NCBI GenBank assembly: GCA_017627765.1
Contig: JAGAGD010000074.1
Location: 1 to 48,043 of the forward strand
Direction of reading: 5' to 3'
DNA: 48,043 nt
From: Prevotella sp.
Lineage (GTDB): Bacteria > Bacteroidota > Bacteroidia > Bacteroidales > Bacteroidaceae
Part shown: in pieces, positions 1 through 48,043 of the stretch
How the letters are laid out: each line of letters begins with the position of its first letter
Numbering within the stretch: the stretch's first letter is position 1
Notes under the pieces: model-generated
Seen by the model: the letters and a program-made list of their open reading frames with translations, nothing else
The model's database searches: none
Told to the model about the DNA's origin: nothing
Program-made: the position numbers and the translations under genes

Positions 1-341
1 AAAATGTGTTTAATTGTTAATCAATCGGCTTAAACTATGTAAACGAACATGAGGAATGAAAAAGTGAAAGGTGTCCTTTCGCGATGCGAAACGTGGCATA
101 TCGCAGTGCGATATGTGGCATATTGCAGTGCCAAAGGTGCCCTTTCACACTGCGAAAGATGCCCTTTGACTTTTTTAACAGTTACGAGTTCTGAGACGAA
201 ACGTATAATGTCTTGATATTGAACAATTTACTAAAAAGAGCAAAAAGCTGCCAAATACTCGCATATTTTGCAACTTTATTTCGCTCGGTCGTAAAATTTT
301 AAGTTATTTGCGAGGTTAGTTAATCAATTTTTTACCCAACT
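1..341 (+). repeat. Dispersed ~340 bp repeat, copy 1
   Basis: This stretch reappears as its reverse complement near 19.1-19.45 kb, and its AT-rich half again at the right window end. Conserved blocks include the 22-bp dyad array (71-170), a block around TCTTGATATTGAACAATTTA and one around CGCATATTTTGCAACTT. GTTAATCAAT occurs near both ends in the same orientation. No ORF is conserved. The similarity reaches base 1, so the element may begin outside the window. Its function is unknown; it could be a small non-autonomous mobile element or a structural or protein-binding element. Confidence 0.85.
71..170 (+). repeat. 22-bp tandem array of imperfect dyads
   Basis: Four full units and a partial fifth follow an exact 22-base period, starting at 71, 93, 115, 137 and 159. 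Each begins with a spacer like GTGNC, followed by two 7-base arms around a 3-base centre. Unit 2 is a perfect dyad (ATATCGC, AGT, GCGATAT); unit 1 pairs TTTCGC with GCGAAA; unit 4 has one mismatch. Unit 3 joins a left arm of one type to a right arm of the other. The array could be a row of protein-binding sites or a series of hairpins in RNA or single-stranded DNA. Confidence 0.85.
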
Positions 342-12277: not shown

Positions 12278-12604
12278 ATGTTCATAATCCGCAATCGCTT
12301 TCTTCCTTTTCCACGATTCGATGCCATAAATCTATTTGGCATCCTGTTCGTTCATCGTGGTGTAAAGCTGACTCCGGAGGTAATAAACCATGAGCGCATA
12401 CACACAGCGCAGATGCTTGAAATGGGAATAATCGGGTTCTATATATGGTATCTTGCCGAATGGACTTTCCGACTATTCAGAAAAGGAAACGCATATAGGA
12501 AACTGCGGTTTGAGCAAGAGGCATACAATCATCAGCATGACTTAGACTATCTGAAACACAGAAAGCCTTATGCATGGCTGAAAACAATGGAACGGGAAAT
12601 TTAA
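12278..12604 (+). CDS. Small HExxH-containing protein of unknown function
   Basis: A 108-residue protein. It contains NHERIHTAQ (about residues 37-45), a full HExxH, followed by a hydrophobic aromatic segment (about 51-68) and a later F-E-Q-E-A-Y-N-H (about 89-96) whose Glu could be a third zinc ligand. I recall similar short proteins in other Bacteroidetes but know no function. A minimal membrane-associated zincin is possible, though the protein is short for a peptidase. The stop codon lies at the edge of an intergenic word repeat. The gene precedes the OPT transporter by 171 bases; a functional link is not evident. Confidence 0.8.
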   Translation: MFIIRNRFLPFPRFDAINLFGILFVHRGVKLTPEVINHERIHTAQMLEMGIIGFYIWYLAEWTFRLFRKGNAYRKLRFEQEAYNHQHDLDYLKHRKPYAWLKTMEREI

Positions 12605-12770
12605 CGGGAGCGGGAACTTTCTTAATTGATAATTGACAATTACTTTCACGTTAATCGTTATTCTTTAATCCTTAATCCAGTGCAACTATGCACTATGCAT
12701 TATGAACTATGCACTGCTAAAGACTATGCACTATAACTGCTTGTCAACTCGAAAAACTTATAAACTCACA
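12601..12770 (+). repeat. Modular intergenic word repeat, forward copy
   Basis: A series of short recurring words: an AACGGGAGCGGGAAC type, AATTGATAATTGACAATT, a CTTTAATCCTTAATCC type, CTATGCACTATGCATTATG and CTTGTCAACT. The same words, in the same order, occur at 19.81-19.92 kb, and in reversed order at 17.9-18.0 and 38.05-38.14 kb. Confidence 0.75.
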
Positions 12771-18023: not shown

Positions 18024-18818
18024 TTAAATAATTGTCGCCTTTTCAATATCCTTGAAGTATCTGTAGGTGCCAACTTTAAGTTCGTCGGTAGCAGCCTCGT
18101 CGCATACTATTATGCCGTGACGATGCATCTGCAGGGCACTGATAGTCCACATGTGAGTTACGCCACCTTCTACTGCTGCCTGCAAAGCGCGGGCCTTATG
18201 GTGACCGTTTACGAGAATCATCACTTCTTTAGCATCCATCACAGTTCCAACACCTACAGTCAGAGCCTGCTTTGGCACCATATTTATGTCGCCGTCGAAG
18301 AAGCGTGAGTTGGCTATTATAGTGTCAGTTGTCAGAGTCTTAACTCTTGTACGCGATGTCAGCGACGAACAAGGTTCGTTGAAGGCGATGTGTCCGTCTG
18401 GACCTATTCCGCCAACAAACAGGTCGATGCCTCCTGCCTCACAAATCATCTGCTCATATCTGCTGCACTCCTCCTCAAGGTTTTCAGCATTGCCATTGAG
18501 TATATGTATATTCTCTTTCGGGCAGTCAATATGGTCGAAAAGATTTCGCGCCATGAATGAGTGATAACTCTCTGGGTGTGCTTCGTCAAGACCAACATAC
18601 TCGTCCATGTTGAACGTAACCACATTCTTAAACGACACACGGCCTGCACGATAAGCCTCAACAAGGCAGGCATACATTCCTTCTGGCGAAGAACCTGTAG
18701 GCAGACCCAGCACAAAAGGTTTTTCGGCTGTAGGTTTTGCCTCGTTTATTTTTTCTATAACGTGTTCGGCTGCCCAGCGAGACATATTCTCATAGTCTTT
18801 CTCAATTATTAAGCGCAT
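18024..18818 (-). CDS. nagB: Glucosamine-6-phosphate deaminase
   Basis: A 264-residue canonical NagB, converting glucosamine-6-phosphate to fructose-6-phosphate and ammonia in the cytoplasm, the last step of GlcNAc and glucosamine catabolism. Active-site residues match the E. coli numbering exactly: Asp72 in NMDEYVG, and Asp141, His143 and Glu148 in [11 protein letters not shown]. The phosphate loop [10 protein letters not shown] is at 38-47. A good Bacteroidetes promoter lies about 110 bases upstream. Downstream on the same strand are the NagB-like/PIG-L fusion and a transporter, suggesting an amino-sugar operon. No nagA is visible in the window. Confidence 0.97.
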
Positions 18819-18933: not shown

Positions 18934-18964
18934 CAAAATTAGAAATTTCCGAATAAACAACAAA
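18934..18964 (-). promoter_or_regulatory. Promoter of nagB
   Basis: Minus strand TTTG (18964-18961), 19 bases, TAATTTTG (18941-18934). The expected start near 18927 gives a leader of about 110 bases, in which the 38 codons before nagB are open but lack an ATG. Confidence 0.75.
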
Positions 18965-19114: not shown

Positions 19115-19450
19115 CATTTTTAAATTGATTAACTATACGCCTCCATAACTTAAAAATTTTCGACCGAGCAAAAAGAAGTTGCAAAATATGCGAGTATTTG
19201 GCGGTTTCTTGTCGTTTTTGGTAAATTGTTCAATATCAAGACATTATACGTTTCGTCTCATAATTCATAAGTGTTAAAAAAGTCAAAGGGCATCTTTCGC
19301 AGTGTGAAAGGGCACCTTTGGCAGTGCAATATGCCACATATCGCACTGCGATATGCCACGTTTCGCATCGCGAAAGGACACCTTTCACTTTTTCGTTCAT
19401 CACGACCGTTCACATAGTTTAAGCCAATTGATTAACAAATAAACAGTTTT
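19115..19450 (-). repeat. Dispersed ~340 bp repeat, copy 2
   Basis: The reverse complement of copy 1 over nearly its full length; the 22-bp array is almost identical and the flanks are more diverged. ATTGATTAAC occurs near both ends in the same orientation. No ORF is conserved. It lies between nagB and the predicted small RNA, in an otherwise gene-free stretch. Confidence 0.88.
19282..19381 (-). repeat. 22-bp tandem dyad array, copy 2
   Basis: Units end at 19381, 19359, 19337 and 19315, with a partial unit to 19282: the same period and order as in copy 1. The only clear difference I find inside the dyads is the centre of the third unit (AGT against ACT). Confidence 0.85.
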
Positions 19451-19565
19451 TTACATTCAGCATCGTGCCAAGAGGAAAAAGCACCTGAAATCTTTCTCTA
19501 GATTGAAAAAACGGTTTGTCAAAATTTTTCACACTTTTCTTATTGAAAAATCTTGACAAAGTGAC

Positions 19566-19595
19566 AAAAAAACTGCTGCGAAAAAAACGCAGCAG
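19566..19595 (-). terminator. Intrinsic terminator of the predicted small RNA
   Basis: CTGCTGCG (19573-19580), a seven-base loop and CGCAGCAG (19588-19595) form a perfect GC-rich stem; on the minus strand it is followed by TTTTTTT. No minus-strand CDS ends nearby, so it must serve an RNA without an ORF. Confidence 0.85.
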
Positions 19596-19701
19596 AACCG
19601 AAATTTGTTTTTAATTTTTGTAGACTAAGTTTTAAAAGTATTGAATCTTGAAAATCGGTATGTTTAAAAATCCGATGATATAATCTTATTTTGTGTTAAT
19701 C
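19566..19701 (-). ncRNA. Predicted small RNA, ~135 nt, no ORF
   Basis: A perfect promoter (TTTG, 20 bases, TATCTTTG) points toward a perfect 8-base hairpin followed by seven U's, about 135 bases away on the same strand. Nothing between them encodes a protein: no ATG is present on that strand. The predicted RNA is AU-rich, has a small internal stem (ATCGG with CCGAT, about 19675 and 19655) and ends in the terminator. I do not recognise it as tmRNA, RNase P RNA, SRP RNA or 6S RNA. Its position between nagB and hflX makes regulation of amino-sugar genes conceivable, but this is unsupported by visible base pairing. Confidence 0.6.
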
Positions 19702-19707
19702 TTGTCG

Positions 19708-19739
19708 CAAAGATAAACAAAATATTTTTTATCAACAAA
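19708..19739 (-). promoter_or_regulatory. Promoter of the predicted small RNA
   Basis: On the minus strand TTTG (19739-19736), exactly 20 bases, TATCTTTG (19715-19708), the same spacing as the best gene promoters in this window. The start is expected near 19701. Confidence 0.75.
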
Positions 19740-19808: not shown

Positions 19809-19925
19809 AGAATGTTAACGGGAACGAGAACGGGAACGGGAACTATCTTAATTGATAATTACGTTCTCGTTAATCATTATTCTTTAATCGTTAATCCTTA
19901 ATCAAGTGCAACTATAAACTTCCCC
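19809..19925 (+). repeat. Modular intergenic word repeat, forward copy
   Basis: Word order as at 12.6 kb: GTTAACGGGAACGAGAACGG, TTAATTGATAATTA, a TTCTTTAATCGTTAATCC word, then GTGCAACTATAAACT, followed by a C/T-rich run (CTTCCCCCTTCCCCCTTCTC). Confidence 0.75.
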
Positions 19926-20085: not shown

Positions 20086-21348
20086 ATGAAAGAATTTGTG
20101 ATAAGCGACGCCAAGACCGAAACAGCGGTTCTGGTCGGTCTCATCACTCAGCAACAAGACGAGGATAAGACTAAGGAATACTTAGACGAACTGGAGTTTC
20201 TTGCAGACACGGCTGGAGCTGTGACTGTAAAGAGATTTACCCAGCGCGTTGGCGGCCCCAACCAGACAAGTTATGTGGGCAAGGGTAAACTCGAAGAAAT
20301 ACGCGAATATATAGAAAACGAAGAGGATGCCGACAGACCTGTGGGCATGGTCATCTTCGACGACGAACTGACTGCAAAGCAGATTCGCAACATTGAACAG
20401 GTGCTGAAAGTGAAAATACTCGACCGCACATCGCTCATTCTCGACATCTTTGCCATGAGAGCTCAGACGGCTGCGGCAAAGACTCAGGTTGAGTTGGCTC
20501 AATACCGCTACATGCTTCCCCGACTGCAGCGTCTATGGACTCACCTTGAGCGACAGGGCGGAGGCTCAGGAAGCGGCGGCGGCAAGGGTAGTGTAGGACT
20601 GCGCGGACCAGGTGAAACTCAGTTGGAGATGGACCGCCGAATTATTCTCGGCCGCATGAGTCTGCTCAAACAGCGACTGGCAGAGATAGACAAACAGAAA
20701 ACTACACAGCGAAAGAATCGCGGCAGACTGATCCGTGCAGCACTAGTGGGATATACCAACGTGGGCAAGTCAACAATAATGAATATGCTCTCTAAGAGTG
20801 AAGTTTTTGCAGAGAACAAATTGTTTGCAACTCTCGACACAACTGTCAGAAAGGTTGTTGTAGACAATCTGCCCTTCCTTCTTGCCGACACCGTCGGATT
20901 TATACGCAAGTTGCCTACCGACCTTGTAGACTCTTTCAAGTCGACACTCGACGAGGTTCGCGAAGCCGACTTGCTTATTCATGTTGTAGACATCTCCCAC
21001 CCCGACTTTGAAGAACAGATAAAGGTGGTTGAGAAGACTCTGGCAGACTTAGGCTGTGCAGACAAGCCTTCTATGATTGTATTCAACAAGATTGATGCCT
21101 ACACATGGAAGGAAAAAGAACCCGACGACCTTACGCCTGCAACCAAAGAAAACATCTCGCTCGACGACCTGCGCCGCACGTGGATGGCAAAGCTGCAAGA
21201 CAACTGCATCTTCATTTCAGCAGCCGAGCGCATCAACATAGAAGAGCTGCGAAGCGTTGTCTATAAGCGCGTAAAGCAGCTTCATGTGCAGAAATATCCT
21301 TATCATGACTTTCTCTACGACATGGTTGAGGATGAAACTAATATATAA
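20086..21348 (+). CDS. hflX: GTPase HflX, ribosome-associated
   Basis: A 420-residue HflX-type GTPase that binds the 50S subunit and, in other bacteria, splits stalled or heat-damaged ribosomes. The N-terminal HflX domain (about 1-170) includes VGKGKLEEI and ends in the Gly/Ser-rich linker [11 protein letters not shown]. The family signature [15 protein letters not shown] (171-185) follows, then a helical arm and the G domain. G1 is GYTNVGKST (222-230), G3 is [10 protein letters not shown] (about 269) and G4 is NKID (about 334). The length is normal. The next gene follows after 25 bases, so the two are probably one operon. Confidence 0.97.
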
Positions 21349-47890: not shown

Positions 47891-48043
47891 AGTTGGGTAA
47901 AAAATTGATTAACTAAACTCGCTGATAACTTAAAAATTTGCGACCAAGCGAAACGAAGTTGCAAAATATGCGATTCCTGAGAGGTTTCTCGCTCTTTTTA
48001 GTAAATCATTCAATATCAAGACATTATAGACTTCGTTTCATAA
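47891..48043 (-). repeat. Dispersed ~340 bp repeat, copy 3, cut by the window end
   Basis: Begins AGTTGGGTAAAAAATTGATT, matching the end of copy 1, and continues through AAGTTGCAAAATATGCGA and CAATATCAAGACATTATA as in copy 2. The 22-bp array, if present, lies beyond the window. Orientation is as in copy 2. Confidence 0.85.

Follow-up and report, generated by a model that had tools for sequence, protein, structure and literature searches.

Two groups of small RNAs (sRNAs) from Bacteroides thetaiotaomicron are among the closest described systems for the element analysed here. According to the available text of the respective sources, GibS (BTnc035) is an intergenic RNA of 145 nt that is mostly single-stranded in its 5' part and ends in an intrinsic terminator (PMC7366714), is encoded between BT_0763-68 and BT_0769-71 (PMC7366714) and uses promoter motif 2 (PMC11697453). 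The FopS sRNAs, as given in the available text of PMC11697453, are about 65–70 nt long, occur in 14 copies per genome and combine a canonical promoter with a single-stranded 5' seed and a terminator, the seed (termed R1 in that work) being shared with GibS. The available part of a catalogue of 3161 candidate structured RNAs from human microbiomes calls two of them, HMP2_6893 and HMP2_905, Prevotella-exclusive (PMC8040213). An sRNA between hflX and nagB is undescribed in the available texts of PMC7366714, PMC10861873, PMC13370916, PMC3878776, PMC11107044, PMC11697453, PMC7160235 and PMC8040213. BTnc231 (Rfam RF04180) is a further Bacteroides sRNA, with a GUGAG loop in its terminator, and our literature search found no sRNA that had been studied by experiment in Prevotella or Segatella. 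In E. coli, FnrS and Spot 42 are sRNAs under the control of a global FNR- or CRP-type regulator.

The element lies in a 48,043-nt stretch of a Prevotella sp. assembly (GCA_017627765.1, contig JAGAGD010000074.1), which we call the window, in the gap between nagB and hflX (Table 1). The original prediction had described an orphan promoter–terminator pair on the minus strand enclosing about 135 bases without ATG, and this description was borne out in its details: TTTG, exactly 20 bases and TATCTTTG were recovered at 19739-19708, the 137-nt transcript predicted from 19702 to 19566 contains no ATG and no GTG or TTG either, and the hairpin at 19595-19573, followed by seven T's, has a perfect 8-bp stem and a loop of 7 bases. 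The plus-strand sites at 641, 4201, 9855 and 28174 indeed show the same 20-base promoter spacing. Given that nagB and hflX are both directed away from the gap, neither gene has this hairpin at its 3' end, and the claim that no coding sequence lies behind either signal also stood.

Under the definitions set here, this is the sole promoter followed by a terminator at a distance of 60–300 nt on either strand of the 48 kb, and such pairs were absent from order-2 Markov controls (0/60 simulated windows and 0/5000 simulated versions of the 1267-nt gap). Promoters alone numbered 6 in the window vs 0.78 per Markov control window. A simple sigma-70 scan, whose definition is loose and uninformative here, did not list the sRNA promoter, and the terminators found by the simple scan were two, that of the sRNA included, vs 2.1 expected from shuffles. 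The 137-nt RNA folded better than its shuffles (z -2.86, 2/200 as good); with the terminator removed, the fold was not better than controls (70/300 as good). Rfam gave no match at gathering scores anywhere in the window, and on the gap, searched at E up to 10, it gave sub-threshold matches only, for example to LhrC (22.9 bits vs 110).

Table 1. Coordinates of the features discussed, in positions of the window.
Feature	Position	Strand	Remark
Promoter	19708..19739	minus	-33 TTTG (19739-19736), 20-base spacer, -7 TATCTTTG (19715-19708)
Predicted sRNA, ~137 nt	19566..19702	minus	start deduced via the -7 box, end via the T run
Intrinsic terminator CTGCTGCG-TTTTTTT-CGCAGCAG-TTTTTTT	19566..19595	minus	hairpin 19595-19573, seven T's 19572-19566
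Conserved 5' block ATACCGATTTTCAAG	19647..19661	minus	same 15 nt in the syntenic sRNA of L087/L138 (two ids for one genome)
nagB, glucosamine-6-phosphate deaminase	18024..18818	minus	TIGR00502 above cut-off; downstream of the sRNA, same strand
hflX	20086..21348	plus	TIGR03156 above cut-off; divergent from the sRNA
Promoter-like site before nagB, TTTG-N19-TAATTTTG	18934..18964	minus	separate from the sRNA promoter
330-nt dispersed repeat	19122..19451	plus	between the sRNA terminator and nagB

Two repeats share the gap with the predicted sRNA. The 330-nt repeat has an inverted copy at window positions 1-330 (90% matching) and a partial copy at 47902-48043, and its presence at both window ends may have caused the assembly to break there. 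A 44-nt repeat, rich in AACGGGAACG units followed by TTAATTGATAATT, occurs in two copies, at 12591-12634 and at 19817-19860, the latter just upstream of the sRNA promoter.

A DNA search with the window element itself matched relatives in short stretches only and was uninformative; the sRNA family became visible only via its synteny with hflX and nagB. A plasmid search returned no match. With hflX as anchor, 137 of 150 genus genomes were matched at E<=1e-60. nagB adjoined hflX in 4 of the 29 relatives' loci read; three of these four contained a conserved element on the same strand as in the window, and the fourth (G118) had a 134-nt gap without an sRNA. The 17-mer ACTGCTGAAACATTCAA, with up to one mismatch, was found in 15/150 genus genomes, at sites not all of which are sRNA genes, and was absent from the window's own genome (G000). 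The core GCTGAAACATT was present in 10 of 60 hflX-upstream regions, which were picked from the 137 genomes by hit rank and flank length rather than randomly; this motif scan overlooked divergent members later found by covariance models. In a collection of 84,980 species genomes, the exact 19-mer AAACTGCTGAAACATTCAA occurred in 40 stretches, 36 of which are sRNA genes by sequence, all from records of Prevotella, Segatella or Prevotellaceae and with S. copri, S. buccae, S. baroniae B14 and P. lacticifex among the species. The 19-mer was also present in L149, L158, L163 and L164, from other groups, which were dropped as lacking the gene architecture.

Gene order around the 36 named loci was recurrent but not fixed. 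hflX lay on the strand opposite to the sRNA in 27 of them (in 8 it was not found within the stretch covered) and nagB on the sRNA's strand in 17, and both genes were reversed in L150. The gene following the sRNA was nagB in 14 loci, another gene on the same strand in 10 and a gene on the opposite strand in 7 (n = 31; 5 more were too short), a count in which L154 enters as opposite-strand though nagB lies on its sRNA strand. Covariance model R1, built from 37 sequences (L146 of the 36 loci left out, L077 and L078 added), gave hits of at least 50 bits in 17/60 hflX-upstream regions, each of them on the strand opposite to hflX, and no clear hit in the other 43. When 398 genus genomes were searched, 98 matched model R1 at E<=0.01, 91 of these with one match each, and 86 matched at E<=1e-4. 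No match at E<=1e-4 was obtained in the order sample beyond the genus (148-149 genomes; best E 0.0016, at noise level), in which Bacteroides is thinly covered and another genus of the same family is represented by one genome (G456, no match); the scan for the exact 19-mer, by contrast, extended over all of the genome collection. As read from its sequences, the predicted sRNA family, which is defined here, has the architecture of an autonomous gene, and 16 family loci (some from the same genome) gave no Rfam match at gathering score.

The relatives' genes are preceded by a promoter of the form TTTG or CTTG, 19–21 bases and TAnnTTTG in 34/36 family loci. A TTGA-N6-TCAA dyad, which we take to resemble an FNR/CRP site, was found in 35/36 loci (Markov controls, 0.51 per 36), and so was a palindrome of the AAACGTTTACG type (35/36 loci; Markov controls, 0.085 per 36), presumably similar to LacI/PurR operators and called LacI-type below. 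The dyad starts 22–24 bases before the -7 box in 33 loci with both, thus overlapping the -33 box, and the palindrome lies 40–42 bp before the dyad in 32 of 34 loci with both. The palindrome–dyad distance is 83 and 87 in L141 and L146, respectively, two loci in which both sites lie much further upstream, the 5' part is longer and no standard promoter was detected where it usually stands. The pattern TTGATNNNNATCAA-N9-TAnnTTTG occurred in 8/10 genomes, once in each and twice in G110, with one site in each of the 8 genomes being the sRNA promoter, and its backward control yielded one site in total. Within the sRNA body, conserved blocks are GATTTTCAA on the 5' side, with up to 3 changes in some members, CTACAT, and ACTGCTGAAACATTC on the 3' side, which is changed in divergent members. 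Family cores showed no excess of structure over controls (mean z 0.20 over 35 cores), and the terminator stem, with two-sided changes in 9/9 pairs, was the only conserved structure found.

Measured against this anatomy, the window copy keeps its position between hflX and nagB on the strand opposite to hflX, has the family promoter type TTTG-N19..21-TAnnTTTG and retains the block ACCGATTTTCAA, by which it counts as carrying the family 5' block GATTTTCAA. The place and type of the terminator are common to the window and the relatives seen, and the stem sequence differs. Missing from the window copy are the 3' block ACTGCTGAAACATTC (no match in G000 even when 1 mismatch was allowed), the LacI-type palindrome and the TTGA-N6-TCAA dyad. 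The divergent members L221-L223 retain ACCGATTTTCAA or ACCGATTTCCAA and are likewise devoid of both palindromes and of ACTGCTGAAACATTC; the palindrome is also absent from L095.

Model R1 placed its first hit in the window at 19686-19558 (E 0.071). We also used model R2, a covariance model of 51 core sequences that excluded the window copy as well as L152, L173, L219, L210 and L220 (wrong automatic core call), the duplicates L116 and L146, and L174. Its first match in the window was at 19662-19567 (27.3 bits, E 0.002), followed by one of 19.1 bits (E 0.097). A core-only profile without promoter and terminator had its best hit in the 48 kb at 19659-19637 on the minus strand (E 0.06), with a score that 2/2000 Markov versions of the gap reached. 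The 17 hflX-upstream regions named above scored at least 50 bits with R1 and R2, and the best R2 score among the other 43 was 15.3 bits (L097) vs 27.3 for the window copy. In the whole genome G000, belonging to the named subset of genomes to which whole-genome R2 and LacI counts apply, the window locus ranked third with R2 (27.3 bits, E 0.10), after an element downstream of groEL (38.4 bits) and the terminator that follows a protease gene (36.7 bits), and its membership of the family hence rests on score plus synteny. The best-scoring place (L255, C115:10329-10436, minus strand) is itself an orphan promoter–terminator pair downstream of a groEL-like gene, sRNA-like and without GATTTTCAA. Elsewhere in G000, R1 had a single hit at E<=0.01 (C92, 32 bits), in a terminator after a TonB-type gene, which we judged to be noise given that it follows a coding sequence and shows no promoter.

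From these comparisons, we consider it probable that the window element is a free-standing sRNA gene, most likely a strongly diverged member of the Prevotella/Segatella hflX–nagB sRNA family. Its membership of the family is likely, not proven. The prediction of a small RNA gene outside known families is well supported, given that an sRNA gene is conserved in relatives at the equivalent location and in the same orientation.

The LacI-type sites led to a candidate regulator. The pattern YGYAAACGTTTWCG was present in all 20 genomes searched, with 1–7 counts each (perfect palindromes count twice), and exceeded its backward control in 19/20, being equal to it in G285; the narrower pattern RAAACGTTTWCGT, which leaves out the commonest form of the site, showed no excess in 6 genomes (11 sites vs 12 in the backward control). 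Among 29 palindrome loci read, 8 lay beside a LacI-family gene and about a dozen were the sRNA promoter. Other palindromes, in 1–2 genomes each, were located near genes of pectin degradation, namely rhamnogalacturonan lyase and pectate-lyase-like genes (one assigned by Pfam and another by an NCBIfam match under the cut-off), near RseC genes and near arginine deiminase (L326, L327, L336, L323, L329, L320). Such sites in single relatives could represent a candidate small regulon. A LacI orthologue (68–100% identity; 49% in G132) was found in 25/30 sRNA-positive vs 2/24 sRNA-negative genomes (Fisher p 4e-8, ignoring relatedness). Within the 30, it was present in 25/26 genomes whose sRNA has the palindrome (the exception, G094, is 84% complete) and in 0/4 without it (G353, G411, G198, G066). 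G000, 88% complete, had no match to the orthologue at E<=1e-30, and the HflX tree placed the window near LacI-positive relatives without strong support. Supported branches offered only 3 independent pairs for the link between sRNA and LacI (sign test p 0.25), and we regard this link, seen in genome content, as suggestive, not significant on supported tree branches.

In the relatives, sRNA transcription would be set by the LacI protein together with a further regulator resembling CRP/FNR, and the sRNA would base-pair through its conserved blocks, GAUUUUCAA first, near the start codons of target mRNAs and lower their translation. The start-codon pairing model is borrowed from GibS and FopS of Bacteroides as presented in the available texts (PMC7366714, PMC11697453). 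The predicted fold of the window RNA has CCGAU, a part of the 5' block, paired to an AUCGG that lies upstream of it, and the proposed seed may consequently be partly hidden. CAT triplets, which are anti-start-codon, averaged 2.1 per core vs 1.2 in mononucleotide shuffles, a weak hint only. Pairing with the starts of nagB (16 loci) and hflX (25 loci) showed no excess over shuffles (mean z 0.06 and 0.40, respectively). When GAATGTTTCAGCAG was sought in 20 genomes at up to one mismatch, no shared target with complementarity to the 3' block emerged, as judged from the exact matches; 16/20 genomes had a single exact match, in every case at the location of the sRNA itself. The proximity to nagB, which had prompted the comparison with GibS as a GlcNAc-induced sRNA, is real and recurrent; however, a GlcNAc role does not follow, given that the sRNA adjoins other genes too.

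Where the window lineage is concerned, no LacI regulator was found and the copy has lost both palindromes; it is therefore probably expressed without control by LacI or the second regulator and may be decaying. As a tentative and more speculative picture, possible at best, the family could be a mostly single-copy sRNA under joint LacI-type and CRP/FNR-like control that serves as the RNA arm of a sugar (pectin or amino-sugar) control system, and the window's lineage could have lost the regulator and its operators together, upon which the sRNA was released and diverged.

Other readings of the window element have to be weighed against family membership. It could be an sRNA unrelated to that of the relatives, a lineage-specific orphan transcript that shares the gap by chance, as the weak model scores, the third rank in its own genome and the missing 3' block, palindromes and family terminator sequence would allow. 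Yet the 15-nt block, strand, gene order and promoter are shared at a syntenic place, two models and the core-only profile all have their best window hit here at a core score that hardly any Markov gap attained, and L221-L223, also without both palindromes, bridge the distance to the typical members, so that we regard chance sharing as unlikely. The loss of the palindromes and the 3' block, together with the LacI regulator not being found in G000, would also fit a family sRNA that has decayed into a silent relic. The window copy nevertheless retains its -33/-7 promoter, its 5' block and a strong terminator ending in seven T's, and a silent copy appears to us rather improbable.

Being upstream of nagB and on its strand, as it is in the relatives with nagB on the sRNA's strand, the element might instead be a regulated leader of this gene (an attenuator or riboswitch) and not an independent sRNA. 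Against a leader speak the promoter-like site that nagB has of its own, the 330-nt repeat lying here between the two, the terminator as the only conserved structure without any Rfam riboswitch, and the downstream gene, which varies among relatives and lies on the other strand in 7/31; given this variation, a gene leader is very unlikely. Least credible is homology to GibS or FopS, to which a length near that of GibS (145 nt in the available text of PMC7366714), the terminator and a brief TTTTCA similarity towards the 5' end might point. The comparison with GibS suggested by the original prediction found no support: Rfam, which may not include GibS, gave no match, and both the locus and the promoter class differ from those in the available descriptions. 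The FopS R1' consensus, as given in the available text of PMC11697453, fitted no better than shuffles, 98/400 being as good for the family and 1127/2000 for the window core.

Of greater interest is the Prevotella/Segatella sRNA family itself, in which the window copy is probably a diverged member. If the family is real, it offers a testable, mostly single-copy sRNA with a predicted transcription factor in gut Segatella copri and in rumen species, and the window's lineage, without operators and regulator, would constitute a natural experiment.

Compared with the known systems, the element resembles GibS, as described in the available sources, which comes from a relative of Prevotella, in being intergenic, about 140 nt long, mostly single-stranded on the 5' side and terminated intrinsically, and differs from it in its nagB–hflX gap and its canonical -33/-7 promoter, GibS thus being set apart by description and not by alignment. 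With the FopS sRNAs, to the extent that the available text describes them, it shares a canonical promoter, a 5' seed that is single-stranded and a terminator, and start-codon pairing as a borrowed model; unlike the 14 FopS copies, 91/98 genomes have one match to our model R1. BTnc231 has a weak match to L088 (27.3 bits), which stays far under the 80.4-bit gathering score and is confined to the terminator, and RF04180 was above its cut-off in 0/119 order genomes. HMP2_6893 and HMP2_905 are located near uvrC in the available part of their catalogue, unlike this family, a comparison that covers these two of 3161 candidates, with overlap possible among the rest. FnrS and Spot 42 provide an analogy in how such control works and in nothing further: the family has a LacI-type site in addition, and its second dyad extends over the -33 box.
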